This document shows positions 1,941-56,021 of a stretch of 64,000 nucleotides of DNA, one piece after another (the stretch's first letter is position 1; the number at the start of each line of letters is the position of its first letter). The DNA lies in assembly GCF_002844395.1 (NCBI RefSeq), contig NZ_CP025197.1, forward strand, positions 1,488,001 through 1,552,000, written 5' to 3'. The position numbers and the translations under genes were made by a program. A model generated the notes under the pieces. The model was given only the letters and a program-made list of their open reading frames with translations. It made no database searches and was not told the origin of the DNA. This stretch comes from Acetivibrio saccincola. Its GTDB lineage: Bacteria; Bacillota; Clostridia; Acetivibrionales; Acetivibrionaceae.

Positions 1941-4900
1941 ATGATGAACTTAACTGAAGAGGCTTTAAAAATAATTATGGATTTGGGTGATAAAAATATA
2001 TTTGTCATAAAAACTTGTGATTTTAGTTTATATTATAGTATTCTAGATGAATTAAAAAATAACACGTTATTTTATGTTCCCAATACAGAAATTAAATACA
2101 GGAGTTTTAAAGAACTATATGAAAGTACAGACAATTTGTTAATAGATTATATATATAACTTAAGGACAAAGAGTATTATTTTGTTGTATGAACAATTTAT
2201 TCAGATAATTGAAAAGATTGATTTCAAAATAATTAACAGTAGTATAATAGTGCTTAATAATAATATTGAACGCTATAAATTTTTGCCTATAAACGAAGAA
2301 AAAGTTATAAATAAAATTGCTACTACAGATATCAACGAAATCCAAGATGAAGAAATAGATTATATGCTTGAATATTATGATGATATAAGAGTCGACAGAT
2401 ATGGTGATACACAAAGAGTTATTATAGATTACAAAGATAAAAATATTTTTGAAAATTTAAGTGTAGAGGAAATTAACTTGGTAGATACAACCCGTGCCTT
2501 ATCTATACAACGTAAAAAATATGGAGATTATGTGAGTGATAATAGTGTAGAAAAATGCTTAATTTATTTAGCACAGGATTTAAAAATATATATTAATAAA
2601 GAGTATTATAACAGACTTCAAAGTGATATATTATTGAAGGAATTCTATAATAGTTCATATAATCAAGTTTGCGTAATTGCAAATCCTGAACATTTTGATT
2701 CGTTACCTATGTATCTTAATGCATGGTGTAGAATTTTTAAAAATATTATACTAGTGGAATATGATATTGATACTAATATATCTTATGAACAAACATATGA
2801 TATTGATTTATTATTAAAAAAATATTGGAATAGTAATAAATTCCGAGAGTACTGTATTTATGATATTTATTCAAATAAGTATCAAGTAAAAAAAATTACA
2901 CAGAAAGAAATTATAATGCAAATTCTATCACAATATGTAAAATCTAAAAGCGGCAATAGTAATGAATGGAAAGATATTTTTTTTATTGCTTCAACTGGAG
3001 CAGGTAAGTCATTGCTATATCAACTACCTTCAATTATTTTAAATGATGAAAATAGAATTACTATTGTAGTTTCTCCTTTAAAAGCGTTAATGAAAGACCA
3101 ATTACAGACTATGCATGAAAAAGGGTTAACTTATGCTACATATATAAATTCAGATGTTTCGTATTCGGAACAGATAGAAAGACTTGAAGGAATAAAAAAT
3201 GGAAAATATTCCTTGATATATGTGTCTCCTGAATTTTTACAAAAGTATTCCAGTGCTAAATATCTTGTTGGTGATAGAAAAATAGGATTAGTAGTTGTAG
3301 ATGAGGCTCATTGTGTTAGTACATGGGGAAAAGATTTTCGTGCTGATTATGGATATTTAGGAGATTATATAAAAAGATACAGAAAAGAGATGCAATTTCC
3401 AATTTTAGCATTAACGGCAACTGCAGTGTGGGGTGGAGAATTTGATACACTAAATGAAATAATAGGATATTTAAACCTTATGCCAGCCCCTATCATCTAT
3501 TATACAGATATTAAAAGAACAAATGTAGATATAGAAATAAAAAAAGTAAATGTTACTGGGAATTACCGTGAAACCAAAATAAAAATGACTATTGATGAAA
3601 TCACTAAGATAGTAAAGGAAGGAAAGAAAGCAATAGTATACTTTCCGTGGAAAAGCCAAATTAAAGATATTTATATTAGACTTTCAGAAGATATTCAATC
3701 TAAAGTAGCAATTTATACTGGTGACACAAAGGGAGAAGAAGGTGAAGAAATTATTTCAAAGTTTAAGTCTGGAGAATATATAGTTGTTCTTGCAACGAAA
3801 GCCTTTGGCATGGGTATAGATATATCTGATATTGAAATAGTATATCATCATGCGATACCTGGAAATTTGGCTGATTATTCCCAAGAAATTGGACGAGCGG
3901 GCAGGAATCGAGAAATTAGAGGAAAAGCCTATACTCTATTTAATCAAAAAGATTTTCAATATTGGAGAATTCTTAAAGGAATTTCTCGTCCTACACAATG
4001 GGAGTTAAAACTTATAGTTAATAAATTATATGATGAGTTTAAATATGGTAAGAAAAAACGTCTACAAAAGTTATTGCCTTTAGATACTTTTTCATTTGTT
4101 TTTAACGAAAATGAAGTAGATAATACCGAGCAAAAAATAAGGACAGCATTATTTTTAATAGAAAAAGATTTTTTTAAAAGATTTGGTTGGAATATAATTA
4201 GCGTCTACCCAAGAGATGAATTTGGTAACTATTACTGTACAGTAGATGACGGTAATAAAGATGAATTTATAAATAAATATGGAAAATATGTTAGAGAAAT
4301 TTGCAATATAGAAGACAATATTAGATTTTCAAGAGATAAATACTATTTGTGCAAAGATATTGGTAATATTCTCGAAATTGATTTAAAGAAGTTATGGGAA
4401 GAGAAATACTATGATAAAAACTATAGGTCTATTAAGTATCTGTTTTTTAACAATAAACTCTTTGAAGATTTTTCGGTCATACCAAGGATTTATACAAAAA
4501 TAGAACTTCAGAGTTCTAAAGAAAAGGTACTAGGGCAACTTGAATATGCATTGAATATAATTGCGACAGCACTTCAAACGCAGGATAAGTTTACAAAGAA
4601 TGAATTGGAAAAGTCTCTGAGAAGGGTAGTAAGAGATGATTATGGGTTAGATGACAAGGAAATTATCAATAAACTTCTACATATATGTACTACTTTTCTT
4701 TACATGGAAGTTGGAAGTAATAACTATTCTCATAAGATGATTATACGTAAAAGAGATGAAGGCAATGAATATATTTATATTGCTCCAAGACTTAAAATTT
4801 CGTTAGGATTACAAAACATTATTAAGATATTTAATAATAGGTTCGAAGATGGGGAAATATTTGAAAAGTTTTTAGTTCCACCATATATTGGAAACTCTAT

Positions 4901-31283: not shown

Positions 31284-31320
31284 TTATGATATTTTCATAA
31301 TAGTTAAAAAATGATATACT
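31284..31320 (+). promoter_or_regulatory. rpn1 promoter with overlapping palindrome
   Basis: TTATGA (31284-31289) and TCATAA (31295-31300) form a perfect palindrome with a 5-bp centre. A -10 box TATACT sits at 31315-31320, 17 bp after a weak -35 (TTTTCA) inside the palindrome. ATG follows 28 bp later with AAGAGGAG. The layout suggests a repressor operator on the rpn promoter. Identical in units 2-4. Confidence 0.55.
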
Positions 31321-31348: not shown

Positions 31349-32398
31349 ATGCCGGAAGGAAGGATAAATAAGGAACATGACCTGGGCTACAAGCATTTAT
31401 TGACGCATAAAAAGACCTTTATTCAACTGTTGAGAAGTTTTGTAAAAGAAGACTGGGTAAAGGAAATAGATGAAAGTCAGGTTATGCTGATAAATAAGAG
31501 TTATGTTTTGCAGGATTTTAAGGAAAAAGAATCGGATATAGTATATAGGTTAAAAATAAAGGACAGGAACGTAATATTTTATTGTTTGTTGGAACTGCAA
31601 TCATCAGTTGATTATCAAATGCCGCTAAGACTGTTGTTCTACATGATAGAGATATGGCGTGATATACTAAAAAACACTGAGCATCATGAGGCAGAGCGAA
31701 AGGGTTTTAAACTTCCCTGTATAGTACCTATTGTACTGTACAATGGAGTAAATAATTGGACGGTATGCAGAAGTTTTAGGGAAATGCTTGATGGCAGTGA
31801 AATATTTTCAAATCATGTATTAGATTTTAATTATATATTGTTTGATGTAAACAGATATGAGGAAGAGGAACTGCTGGGACTTGCAAACCTTATATCAGGA
31901 GTATTTCTATTGGACCAGAAAATAGATTCTGAACAGTTAAAGGACAGGTTGGTAAAAATGATAGAGATATTAGGGGACCTGTCGGAAGAGGAATTTGGTT
32001 TATTTAAAGGTTGGCTAAAATGGATATTAAAGCCGAGGATATCAGAGGAATTGCGTTTTAAGATAGATGACATACTGGAAAAATCGAGACCAACGGAGGT
32101 GGAAAATATGGTTTACAATCTTGCCAATACAATTGACGAAATGACTCAAAAAGCTATGGAAAAGGGAATAGAAGAAGGAATACAAAAGGGAATACAAAAG
32201 GGAATACAAAAGGGAATAGAAGAGGGAATACAAAAGGGAATAGAAGAAGGATTACAAAAGGGAATAAAAGAAGGGGTATTGAAAGTTGCGAAATCAGCCT
32301 TGGAGAAGGGGGCAGACATAGACTTTGTAGCAAGTATTACCGAATTGGATATTGAAATAGTAAAGAAACTAAAGGAAGAAATTGAAAGGACAAAATAA
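31349..32398 (+). CDS. C1: Rpn-family PD-(D/E)XK nuclease
   Basis: A 349-residue Rpn protein (recombination-promoting nuclease/Transposase_31 family). The start (MPEGRINKEHDLGYKHLLTH) and ESDIVYRLKIKDRNVIFYCL followed by LELQSSVDYQMPLRLLFYM show the nuclease core with Asp and the E-L-Q motif. Known Rpn proteins are Mg2+-dependent DNA endonucleases that stimulate RecA-independent recombination, and some act against phage. The C-terminal end has ten 4-residue repeats of the [EQK][EK]G[IL] type, then a helical dimerisation-like tail. An internal ribosome binding site before Met254 is annotated separately. Own promoter and own terminator, so not part of the A-B operon. Confidence 0.88.
   Translation: MPEGRINKEHDLGYKHLLTHKKTFIQLLRSFVKEDWVKEIDESQVMLINKSYVLQDFKEKESDIVYRLKIKDRNVIFYCLLELQSSVDYQMPLRLLFYMIEIWRDILKNTEHHEAERKGFKLPCIVPIVLYNGVNNWTVCRSFREMLDGSEIFSNHVLDFNYILFDVNRYEEEELLGLANLISGVFLLDQKIDSEQLKDRLVKMIEILGDLSEEEFGLFKGWLKWILKPRISEELRFKIDDILEKSRPTEVENMVYNLANTIDEMTQKAMEKGIEEGIQKGIQKGIQKGIEEGIQKGIEEGLQKGIKEGVLKVAKSALEKGADIDFVASITELDIEIVKKLKEEIERTK
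32108..32398 (+). CDS. Intragenic C-terminal Rpn product (putative antitoxin), unit 1
   Basis: GGAGGT at 32095-32100 is followed after exactly 7 bases by an in-frame ATG (32108) inside rpn1. Translation from it would give 96 residues (MVYNLANTIDEMTQKAMEKG...) comprising the 4-residue repeats and the tail without the nuclease domain. For E. coli RpnA a small protein made from such an internal start binds and blocks the full-length nuclease. The motif is conserved in all five copies here. Production is inferred, not observed. Confidence 0.65.
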   Translation: MVYNLANTIDEMTQKAMEKGIEEGIQKGIQKGIQKGIEEGIQKGIEEGLQKGIKEGVLKVAKSALEKGADIDFVASITELDIEIVKKLKEEIERTK

Positions 32399-32440: not shown

Positions 32441-32457
32441 AGGGGAATAGTTCCCCT
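32441..32457 (+). terminator. rpn1 terminator
   Basis: AGGGGAA and TTCCCCT form a 7-bp perfect stem with a TAG loop, followed by ATATTTTTT. Repeated after every complete rpn copy. Confidence 0.85.
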
Positions 32458-36740: not shown

Positions 36741-37802
36741 ATGCCGGAAGGAAGGATAAATAAGGAACATGACCTGGGCTACAAGCATTTATTGACGCAT
36801 AAAAAGACCTTTATTCAACTGTTGAGAAGTTTTGTAAAAGAAGACTGGGTAAAGGAAATAGATGAAAGTCAGGTTATGCTGATAAATAAGAGTTATGTTT
36901 TGCAGGATTTTAAGGAAAAAGAATCGGATATAGTATATAGGTTAAAAATAAAGGACAGGAACGTAATATTTTATTGTTTGTTGGAACTGCAATCATCAGT
37001 TGATTATCAAATGCCGCTAAGACTGTTGTTCTACATGATAGAGATATGGCGTGATATACTAAAAAACACTGAGCATCATGAGGCAGAGCGAAAGGGTTTT
37101 AAACTTCCCTGTATAGTACCTATTGTACTGTACAATGGAGTAAATAATTGGACGGTATGCAGAAGTTTTAGGGAAATGCTTGATGGCAGTGAAATATTTT
37201 CAAATCATGTATTAGATTTTAATTATATATTGTTTGATGTAAACAGATATGAGGAAGAGGAACTGCTGGGACTTGCAAACCTTATATCAGGAGTATTTCT
37301 ATTGGACCAGAAAATAGATTCTGAACAGCTAAAAGACAGATTGGTAAAAATGATAGAGATATTAGGGGACCTGTCGGAAGAGGAATTTGGTTTATTTAAA
37401 GGTTGGCTAAAATGGATATTAAAGCCGAGGATATCAGAGGAATTGCGTTTTAAGATAGATGACATACTGGAAAAATCGAGACCAACGGAGGTGGAAAATA
37501 TGGTTTACAATCTTGCCAATACAATTGACGAAATGACTCAAAAAGCTATGGAAAAGGGAATAGAAGAAGGAATACAAAAGGGAATACAAAAGGGAATAGA
37601 AGAGGGAATACAAAAGGGAATAGAAGAAGGATTACAAAAGGGAATAAAAGAAGGAATACAAAAGGGAATAAAAGAAGGGGTATTGAAAGTTGCGAAATCA
37701 GCCTTGGAGAAGGGGGCAGACATAGACTTTGTAGCATGTATTACCGAATTGGATATTGAAATAGTAAAGAAACTAAAGGAAGAAATTGAAAGGACAAAAT
37801 AA
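36741..37802 (+). CDS. C2: Rpn-family nuclease, 11 repeats
   Basis: 353 residues, nearly identical to C1 across the nuclease domain. The 4-residue repeat tract has 11 units (an extra KEGI-QKGI pair and one QKGI less than C1). One Ser-to-Cys change (VACITELD) near the C-terminus. Open and with intact promoter and terminator. Confidence 0.87.
   Translation: MPEGRINKEHDLGYKHLLTHKKTFIQLLRSFVKEDWVKEIDESQVMLINKSYVLQDFKEKESDIVYRLKIKDRNVIFYCLLELQSSVDYQMPLRLLFYMIEIWRDILKNTEHHEAERKGFKLPCIVPIVLYNGVNNWTVCRSFREMLDGSEIFSNHVLDFNYILFDVNRYEEEELLGLANLISGVFLLDQKIDSEQLKDRLVKMIEILGDLSEEEFGLFKGWLKWILKPRISEELRFKIDDILEKSRPTEVENMVYNLANTIDEMTQKAMEKGIEEGIQKGIQKGIEEGIQKGIEEGLQKGIKEGIQKGIKEGVLKVAKSALEKGADIDFVACITELDIEIVKKLKEEIERTK
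37500..37802 (+). CDS. Intragenic C-terminal Rpn product, unit 2
   Basis: Same GGAGGT and 7-base spacing to ATG 37500; the predicted product has 100 residues, four more than in unit 1 because of the longer repeat tract. Confidence 0.6.
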   Translation: MVYNLANTIDEMTQKAMEKGIEEGIQKGIQKGIEEGIQKGIEEGLQKGIKEGIQKGIKEGVLKVAKSALEKGADIDFVACITELDIEIVKKLKEEIERTK

Positions 37803-44076: not shown

Positions 44077-45162
44077 ATGCCGGAAGGAAGGATAAATAAG
44101 GAACATGACCTGGGCTACAAGCATTTATTGACGCATAAAAAGACCTTTATTCAACTGTTGAGAAGTTTTGTAAAAGAAGACTGGGTAAAGGAAATAGATG
44201 AAAGTCAGGTTATGCTGATAAATAAGAGTTATGTTTTGCAGGATTTTAAGGAAAAAGAATCGGATATAGTATATAGGTTAAAAATAAAGGACAGGAACGT
44301 AATATTTTATTGTTTGTTGGAACTGCAATCATCAGTTGATTATCAAATGCCGCTAAGACTGTTGTTCTACATGATAGAGATATGGCGTGATATACTGAAA
44401 AACACTGAGCATCATGAGGCAGAGCGAAAGGATTTTAAACTTCCCTGTATAGTACCTATTGTACTGTACAATGGAGTAAATAATTGGACGGTATGCAGAA
44501 GTTTTAGGGAAATGCTTGATGGCAGTGAAATATTTTCAAATCATGTATTAGATTTTAATTATATATTGTTTGATGTAAACAGATATGAGGAAGAGGAACT
44601 GCTGGGACTTGCAAACCTTATATCAGGAGTATTTCTATTGGACCAGAAAATAGATTCTGAACAGCTAAAAGACAGATTGGTAAAAATGATAGAGATATTA
44701 GGGGACCTGTCGGAAGAGGAATTTGGTTTATTTAAAGGTTGGCTAAAATGGATATTAAAGCCGAGGATATCAGAGGAATTGCGTTTTAAGATAGATGACA
44801 TACTGGAAAAATCGAGACCAACGGAGGTGGAAAATATGGTTTACAATCTTGCCAATACAATTGACGAAATGACTCAAAAAGCTATGGAAAAGGGAATAGA
44901 AGAAGGAATACAAAAGGGAATACAAAAGGGAATAGAAGAGGGAATACAAAAGGGAATAGAAGAGGGAATACAAAAGGGAATAGAAGAAGGATTACAAAAG
45001 GGAATAAAAGAAGGAATACAAAAGGGAATAAAAGAAGGGGTATTGAAAGTTGCGAAATCAGCCTTGGAGAAGGGGGCAGACATAGACTTTGTAGCAAGTA
45101 TTACCGAATTGGATATTGAAATAGTAAAGAAACTAAAGGAAGAAATTGAAAGGACAAAATAA
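44077..45162 (+). CDS. C3: Rpn-family nuclease, 13 repeats
   Basis: 361 residues, the longest copy, with 13 four-residue repeats. One Gly-to-Asp change (AERKDFKLP). Otherwise like C1. Confidence 0.87.
   Translation: MPEGRINKEHDLGYKHLLTHKKTFIQLLRSFVKEDWVKEIDESQVMLINKSYVLQDFKEKESDIVYRLKIKDRNVIFYCLLELQSSVDYQMPLRLLFYMIEIWRDILKNTEHHEAERKDFKLPCIVPIVLYNGVNNWTVCRSFREMLDGSEIFSNHVLDFNYILFDVNRYEEEELLGLANLISGVFLLDQKIDSEQLKDRLVKMIEILGDLSEEEFGLFKGWLKWILKPRISEELRFKIDDILEKSRPTEVENMVYNLANTIDEMTQKAMEKGIEEGIQKGIQKGIEEGIQKGIEEGIQKGIEEGLQKGIKEGIQKGIKEGVLKVAKSALEKGADIDFVASITELDIEIVKKLKEEIERTK
44836..45162 (+). CDS. Intragenic C-terminal Rpn product, unit 3
   Basis: Same internal GGAGGT-7-ATG site; predicted length 108 residues because of the 13 repeats. 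Confidence 0.6.
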   Translation: MVYNLANTIDEMTQKAMEKGIEEGIQKGIQKGIEEGIQKGIEEGIQKGIEEGLQKGIKEGIQKGIKEGVLKVAKSALEKGADIDFVASITELDIEIVKKLKEEIERTK

Positions 45163-50102: not shown

Positions 50103-51140
50103 ATGCCGGAAGGAAGGATAAATAAGGAACATGACCTGGGCTACAAGCATTTATTGACGCATAAAAAGACCTTTATTCAACTGTTGAGAAGTTTTGTAAA
50201 AGAAGACTGGGTAAAGGAAATAGATGAAAGTCAGGTTATGCTGATAAATAAGAGTTATGTTTTGCAGGATTTTAAGGAAAAAGAATCGGATATAGTATAT
50301 AGGTTAAAAATAAAGGATAGGAACGTAATATTTTATTGTTTGTTGGAACTGCAATCATCAGTTGATTATCAAATGCCGCTAAGACTGTTGTTCTACATGA
50401 TAGAGATATGGCGTGATATACTGAAAAACACTGAGCATCATGAGGCAGAGCGAAAGGGTTTTAAACTTCCCTGTATAGTACCTATTGTACTGTACAATGG
50501 AGTAAATAATTGGACGGTATGCAGAAGTTTTAGGGAAATGCTTGATGGCAGTGAAATATTTTCAAATCATGTATTAGATTTTAATTATATATTGTTTGAT
50601 GTAAACAGATATGAGGAAGAGGAACTGCTGGGACTTGCAAACCTTATATCAGGAGTATTTCTATTGGACCAGAAAATAGATTCTGAACAGTTAAAGGACA
50701 GGTTGGTAAAAATGATAGAGATATTAGGGGACCTGTCGGAAGAGGAATTTGGTTTATTTAAAGGTTGGCTAAAATGGATATTAAAGCCGAGGATATCAGA
50801 GGAATTGCGTTTTAAGATAGATGACATACTGGAAAAATCGAGACCAACGGAGGTGGAAAATATGGTTTACAATCTTGCCAATACAATTGACGAAATGACT
50901 CAAAAAGCTATGGAAAAGGGAATAGAAGAAGGAATACAAAAGGGAATACAAAAGGGAATAGAAGAGGGAATACAAAAGGGAATAGAAGAAGGATTACAAA
51001 AGGGAATAAAAGAAGGGGTATTGAAAGTTGCGAAATCAGCCTTGGAGAAGGGGGCAGGCATAGACTTTGTAGCAAGTATTACCGAATTGGATATTGAAAT
51101 AGTAAAGAAACTAAAGGAAGAAATTGAAAGGACAAAATAA
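50103..51140 (+). CDS. C4: Rpn-family nuclease, 9 repeats
   Basis: 345 residues, the shortest complete copy, with nine four-residue repeats. One Asp-to-Gly change (EKGAGIDF). Nuclease core as in C1. Confidence 0.87.
   Translation: MPEGRINKEHDLGYKHLLTHKKTFIQLLRSFVKEDWVKEIDESQVMLINKSYVLQDFKEKESDIVYRLKIKDRNVIFYCLLELQSSVDYQMPLRLLFYMIEIWRDILKNTEHHEAERKGFKLPCIVPIVLYNGVNNWTVCRSFREMLDGSEIFSNHVLDFNYILFDVNRYEEEELLGLANLISGVFLLDQKIDSEQLKDRLVKMIEILGDLSEEEFGLFKGWLKWILKPRISEELRFKIDDILEKSRPTEVENMVYNLANTIDEMTQKAMEKGIEEGIQKGIQKGIEEGIQKGIEEGLQKGIKEGVLKVAKSALEKGAGIDFVASITELDIEIVKKLKEEIERTK
50862..51140 (+). CDS. Intragenic C-terminal Rpn product, unit 4
   Basis: Same internal start; predicted length 92 residues, the shortest of the four. 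Confidence 0.6.
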   Translation: MVYNLANTIDEMTQKAMEKGIEEGIQKGIQKGIEEGIQKGIEEGLQKGIKEGVLKVAKSALEKGAGIDFVASITELDIEIVKKLKEEIERTK

Positions 51141-55756: not shown

Positions 55757-56021
55757 TGTATTTTTATTGGACCAGAAAATAGACTCGAATCAGCTAAAAG
55801 ACAGATTGGTAAAAATGATAAAAATATTAAAGGACCTGTCGGAAGAGGAATTTGGTTTATTTAAAGGTTGGTTTAAATGGATATTAAAGCCGAGGATATC
55901 AGAAGAATTGCGTTTTAAGATAGATGACATACTGGAAAAATCGAGACCAACGGAGGTGGAAAATATGGTTTACAATCTTGCCAATACAATTGACGAAATG
56001 ACTCAAAAAGCTATGGTGTAG
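55757..56021 (+). pseudogene. rpn5 fragment between a deletion and a transposon end
   Basis: The sequence jumps from the broken A-B terminator (AATAACCGTTG) into rpn at LDQKID, about codon 190, and stops at KAMV because the transposon begins at 56017. The nuclease core is gone. The internal GGAGGT-7-ATG site (ATG 55965) is kept but opens only an 18-residue frame. Confidence 0.88.

Follow-up and report, generated by a model that had tools for sequence, protein, structure and literature searches.

The tandem rpn genes of Acetivibrio saccincola carry a second, internal start, and each intact copy very probably forms a gene-within-gene toxin-antitoxin unit, in which the full-length protein RpnL and a small C-terminal protein in the same frame, the predicted antitoxin RpnS, are encoded by one gene. 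By comparing codon usage under the internal site in diverged homologues, we show that the internal start and its Shine-Dalgarno (SD) sequence have been conserved by selection at the DNA level across Bacillota. Judged by its sequence, the anatomy agrees with the published RpnL/RpnS system in the features that we tested, and is of an already known kind. That RpnS is translated, that it neutralises RpnL and that the system defends against phage is what we infer for these genes from the experimentally studied systems.

The rpn copies and their internal starts

The DNA analysed here (the window, 64,000 nt) spans positions 1,488,001-1,552,000 of one 3.6-Mb contig and contains, in tandem, four intact copies of rpn and a fifth that is a fragment (Table 1). 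Three more intact copies are located at 3.57 Mb of the same genome, giving seven in all. The amplified unit (approximately 5.3-7.5 kb; window 26900-56020) consists of rpn, a protein with a copper-amine-oxidase N-domain and a protein of approximately 980 aa, often broken. The same type of unit was tandemly amplified again, in a more diverged form, at 3.57 Mb (L070, genome 3.560-3.580 Mb), and at 0.46 Mb (L072, genome 0.452-0.466 Mb) there is a remnant that has a truncation junction in common with rpn5. A distant second Rpn gene at 2.80 Mb (L012:1501-2535) has, at the junction of nuclease and tail, AAGGAGGT / GAGAAGGAGGTTGAAGCTATG together with an in-frame ATG.

Table 1. Features of the rpn array, in window coordinates
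Feature	Position	Strand	Support or remark
Promoter-like site TTTTCA-17-TATACT before rpn1	31292..31320	+	Weak; such sites no commoner than in shuffles
rpn1, full-length RpnL, 349 aa	31349..32398	+	PF04754 E 1.7e-32; TIGR01784 64.7 bits, cut-off 52.1; own SD GAGGAG before ATG 31349
rpn1 internal SD GGAGGT, 7-nt spacer, rpnS1 ATG	32095..32110	+	Duplex energy -10.8 kcal/mol; conserved in homologues
rpnS1, predicted 96-aa antitoxin, same frame as rpn1	32108..32398	+	ORF; AlphaFold model
rpn1 12-bp/4-aa repeat stretch (GIEE/GIQK)	32162..32272	+	Number differs between copies
Terminator-like hairpin after rpn1	32441..32457	+	
rpn2 RpnL, 353 aa	36741..37802	+	PF04754 match
rpn2 internal SD and rpnS2 (SD 37487, ATG 37500, 100 aa)	37487..37802	+	
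rpn2 4-aa repeat stretch	37554..37676	+	
rpn3 RpnL, 361 aa	44077..45162	+	PF04754 match
rpn3 internal SD and rpnS3 (SD 44823, ATG 44836, 108 aa)	44823..45162	+	
rpn3 4-aa repeat stretch	44890..45036	+	
rpn4 RpnL, 345 aa	50103..51140	+	PF04754 match
rpn4 internal SD and rpnS4 (SD 50849, ATG 50862, 92 aa)	50849..51140	+	
rpn4 4-aa repeat stretch	50916..51014	+	
rpn5 fragment (SD 55952, ATG 55965)	55758..56019	+	Lacks the nuclease N-terminus; stop in the internal frame after 18 aa

The first-pass annotation had described GGAGGT, exactly 7 nt and an in-frame ATG in all five window copies, with products of given lengths from the four intact ones, and both descriptions proved correct (Table 1). The predicted N-terminal peptide of RpnS is MVYNLANTIDEMTQK at each of the four intact internal starts, and the products indeed lack the nuclease domain, which Pfam places at residues 9-211 of 345-361, upstream of the internal start. 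The fragment had also been counted as an instance; the motif is present there, but the internal frame reads MVYNLANTIDEMTQKAMV and then meets a stop, and therefore no RpnS can be made from rpn5, which is a dead copy for both products and not countable as a functional instance. The exact pattern GGAGGT-N7-ATG was found six times in the window compared with 0.31 expected, the sixth occurrence (57380) being outside any rpn gene.

In rpn1, the internal SD was stronger than that of the gene's own start (-8.5 kcal/mol) and the strongest among all in-frame ATG, GTG and TTG sites of the gene. It was not unusually open in the local fold (unpaired 0.59; background 0.54). A promoter-like site was sought inside rpn1 before the RpnS part and none was seen, in contrast with E. 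coli rpn genes, which have internal transcription starts (PMC10327210). The claim that such an SD is unlikely by chance did not hold for rpn1 taken alone, as synonymous shuffling gave p values of 0.075 locally and 0.24 gene-wide, whereas it was borne out across diverged homologues. It had also been cautioned that near-identical copies are not independent evidence, which we confirmed for the five window copies; thus, the question of chance has to be decided in diverged homologues.

Conservation of the internal start in homologues

Homologues were collected from the same family, order, class and phylum. For 24 of them (37-59% identity), alignment to rpn1 set the SD position; rpn1 itself, as the discovery sequence, was left out. 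First, the summed SD energy was -262.9, whereas synonymous draws gave -136 +/- 13.5 (z -9.4), and GAG coded for the SD glutamate in 20 of 20 cases (6.2 expected). Second, the residues under the SD varied (EV, ES, EA, EG, ET, GKV, KED and EGDGG) while the SD itself stayed, and a second subfamily made it from EGSE or ERSE in a different codon phase. This examination of diverged homologues had been proposed in the first-pass annotation, and its outcome, an SD kept while the encoded residues change, is the reverse of the one named there as speaking against an internal start. Finally, M254 was nearly invariant within an otherwise variable tail, and in one homologue (L054) GTG replaced ATG as the internal start.

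These data bear on the possibility that a conserved junction peptide (K/x-E-V) produces the SD-like sequence incidentally, with no initiation at that place. Such a reading would account for the frequent E-V at the junction and for the lack of significance in rpn1 alone; however, the SD persisted with quite different residues and in another codon phase, the preference for GAG and the summed energy went far beyond synonymous expectation, and a start codon was kept after the SD even where it had become GTG. We consider it very improbable.

In the genome of another family, one relative (L076, minus strand, approximately 3640-4120) had a deleted and frameshifted nuclease part, with the SD (GGAGGTGGAAAATATG) and the tail frame intact, and is possibly an antitoxin-only remnant. 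An apparent standalone RpnS in a 77% relative (L013/L023) was rejected as a real split, the break being a scaffold gap (a run of N).

The analysis was extended to 88 Bacillota Rpn representatives below 60% identity, a level at which shared ancestry is not fully removed. The best internal SD-start was 56-130 codons from the stop in 83 of the 88 (shuffles: 50.8, maximum 60), and in 72 it lay in this interval with E<=-8, a strong site at the nuclease/tail junction (shuffles: 22.8 +/- 3.4, maximum 31). Among unrelated ORFs of the same loci, 6 of 89 had a comparable SD-start. The interval was chosen after the sites had been seen, and the same interval was applied to shuffles and controls. Single genes were rarely significant against synonymous shuffling and the signal is collective; per-gene local p values, taken at the best position, are biased, whereas whole-gene maxima are not. 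It has also to be asked whether the SD might be a vestige of the fusion of a once separate nuclease gene and small tail gene, now without use. Standalone RpnS genes are known in E. coli (PMC10327210), which would fit; on the other hand, a relic would decay, whereas the site and its codon bias were kept down to 37% identity and in the 88 diverged representatives, and a mere vestige appears scarcely credible to us.

Family assignment and predicted structure

The full-length copies belong to the Rpn family (for rpn1, PF04754 at 113 bits against a cut-off of 21, with TIGR01784 also above its cut-off; Table 1). Both family models, PF04754 being named YhgA-like putative transposase, match the full-length copies but do not describe the internal product. 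The PD-(D/E)XK-type core is intact, and D63, E82 and Q84, which belong to the columns that do not vary in 25 homologues, are presumably the catalytic residues (an E-x-Q variant). EndoMS and Shedu nuclease rows covered the N-terminal part with Z values of 6.9 and 5.5, under the safe threshold.

For the tail, AlphaFold run on the alignment (mean pLDDT 87.8) placed helices at 248-319, 324-331 and 335-348, with the modelled Met 254 near the start of the long helix and the two short helices after it. In this model, the tail would be a small three-helix domain with a long first helix, as is RpnAS, a three-helix bundle whose first helix is long (PMC10327210). The family profile matched RpnAS (7TH0) weakly, at an E value of 0.47 that is not significant alone; a single-sequence PDB search gave chance matches only, and Foldseek gave no match at E<=0.001. 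VIA-align rows had middling Z values and were mostly helical, with RpnAS absent among them. In addition, a PADLOC candidate defence model (PDLC01084; C3a178, 90 positions, 'putative invertase') matched the RpnS part (window 32108-32395, E 1.5e-7). Small standalone RpnS-like proteins may be among that candidate list, and the repeats could also produce the match.

Repeat number in the seven intact copies

The repeats are variable 4-aa units that begin approximately 18 residues after the internal Met, within the 8-20 residues typical of the RpnL/RpnS system. All seven intact copies differed in the number of the 12-bp unit, with RpnS lengths of 72, 80, 84, 92, 96, 100 and 108 aa, and the surrounding DNA was nearly uniform: over the 759 nt leading up to the internal start, copies differed by 2-15 nt, and over the final 130 nt by 0-2. 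Among 106 pairs sharing at least 75% identity in the nuclease part (21 of them from this genome itself), only 4 had equal length and 55 differed by a non-zero multiple of four. That all seven differ is not significant by itself, being expected in about 6% of random draws from ten equally likely lengths, and rapid slippage, to which short tandem repeats are prone, could account for the length differences in the absence of selection.

In E. coli RpnC, one extra repeat abolishes cross-neutralisation (PMC10327210), and for this reason the copies may be insulated pairs. That the two tandem arrays represent seven near-identical RpnL/RpnS units which do not neutralise one another, insulated by the change of repeat length alone, is an idea that we put forward tentatively and regard as rather doubtful.

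Comparison with known systems and possible mechanism

In E. coli, translation of RpnS begins at an internal start, and the protein binds RpnL and inhibits its nuclease activity both in vivo and in vitro (Zhong et al. 2023, PMC10327210); RpnS was also made by a C. difficile rpn gene (PMC10327210). It is because of these published experiments that we propose an antitoxin role for the small product here. The genes share with E. coli RpnA-E and RpnP2 and with C. difficile rpn (PMC10327210) the nuclease family and an in-frame internal start with a ribosome-binding site at the domain junction, as well as the helical tail, the variable 4-aa repeats after the internal Met and the tandem copies arising by duplication. 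Differences from these systems were also observed: RpnS is longer here (72-108 aa, compared with the 49-residue chain of 7TH0), owing to the repeats, and near-identical copies in one genome all differ in repeat number.

On this basis, one mRNA with two SD-led starts would be produced from each intact gene. The first start would give RpnL, with a PD-(D/E)XK-type nuclease domain and a C-terminal helical tail, and the second, at the domain junction, would give RpnS, the tail alone. The long repeat helix would let RpnS dimerise with RpnL, whose tail is identical, and the nuclease would stay inactive until released by a trigger. If repeat number sets the specificity of pairing, as in E. coli RpnC, the seven lengths would be partly or fully insulated from one another.

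Cas11d, encoded inside cas10d (cited in PMC10327210), is likewise a second product from an internal start of one gene; however, it is a working subunit and not an inhibitor. By analogy with Cas11 in Cascade, RpnL might need RpnS for its activity, as a structural partner or assembly subunit. The same anatomy would suit a stoichiometric subunit and the strong SD predicts the small product in excess, but inhibition of RpnL by E. coli RpnS both in vivo and in vitro, extended by inference to such distant relatives, makes this role unlikely, and we favour an antitoxin. With regard to phage, a plasmid rpn system protects against some phages (PMC10327210). In the phage collection, there were only two distant Leptospira phage matches, to the nuclease part, and no phage-borne RpnS; plasmid matches were all distant (<60% identity).

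Taken together, the internal start of RpnS, previously established in a handful of tested genes, becomes a selection-supported feature of the Rpn genes of Bacillota, many of which carry no annotation other than 'putative transposase'. Less expected is the series of repeat lengths within a single genome, and the seven copies, which are nearly identical in the nuclease part but differ in repeat number, provide a natural set for studying whether repeat number is the specificity code of this toxin-antitoxin family.
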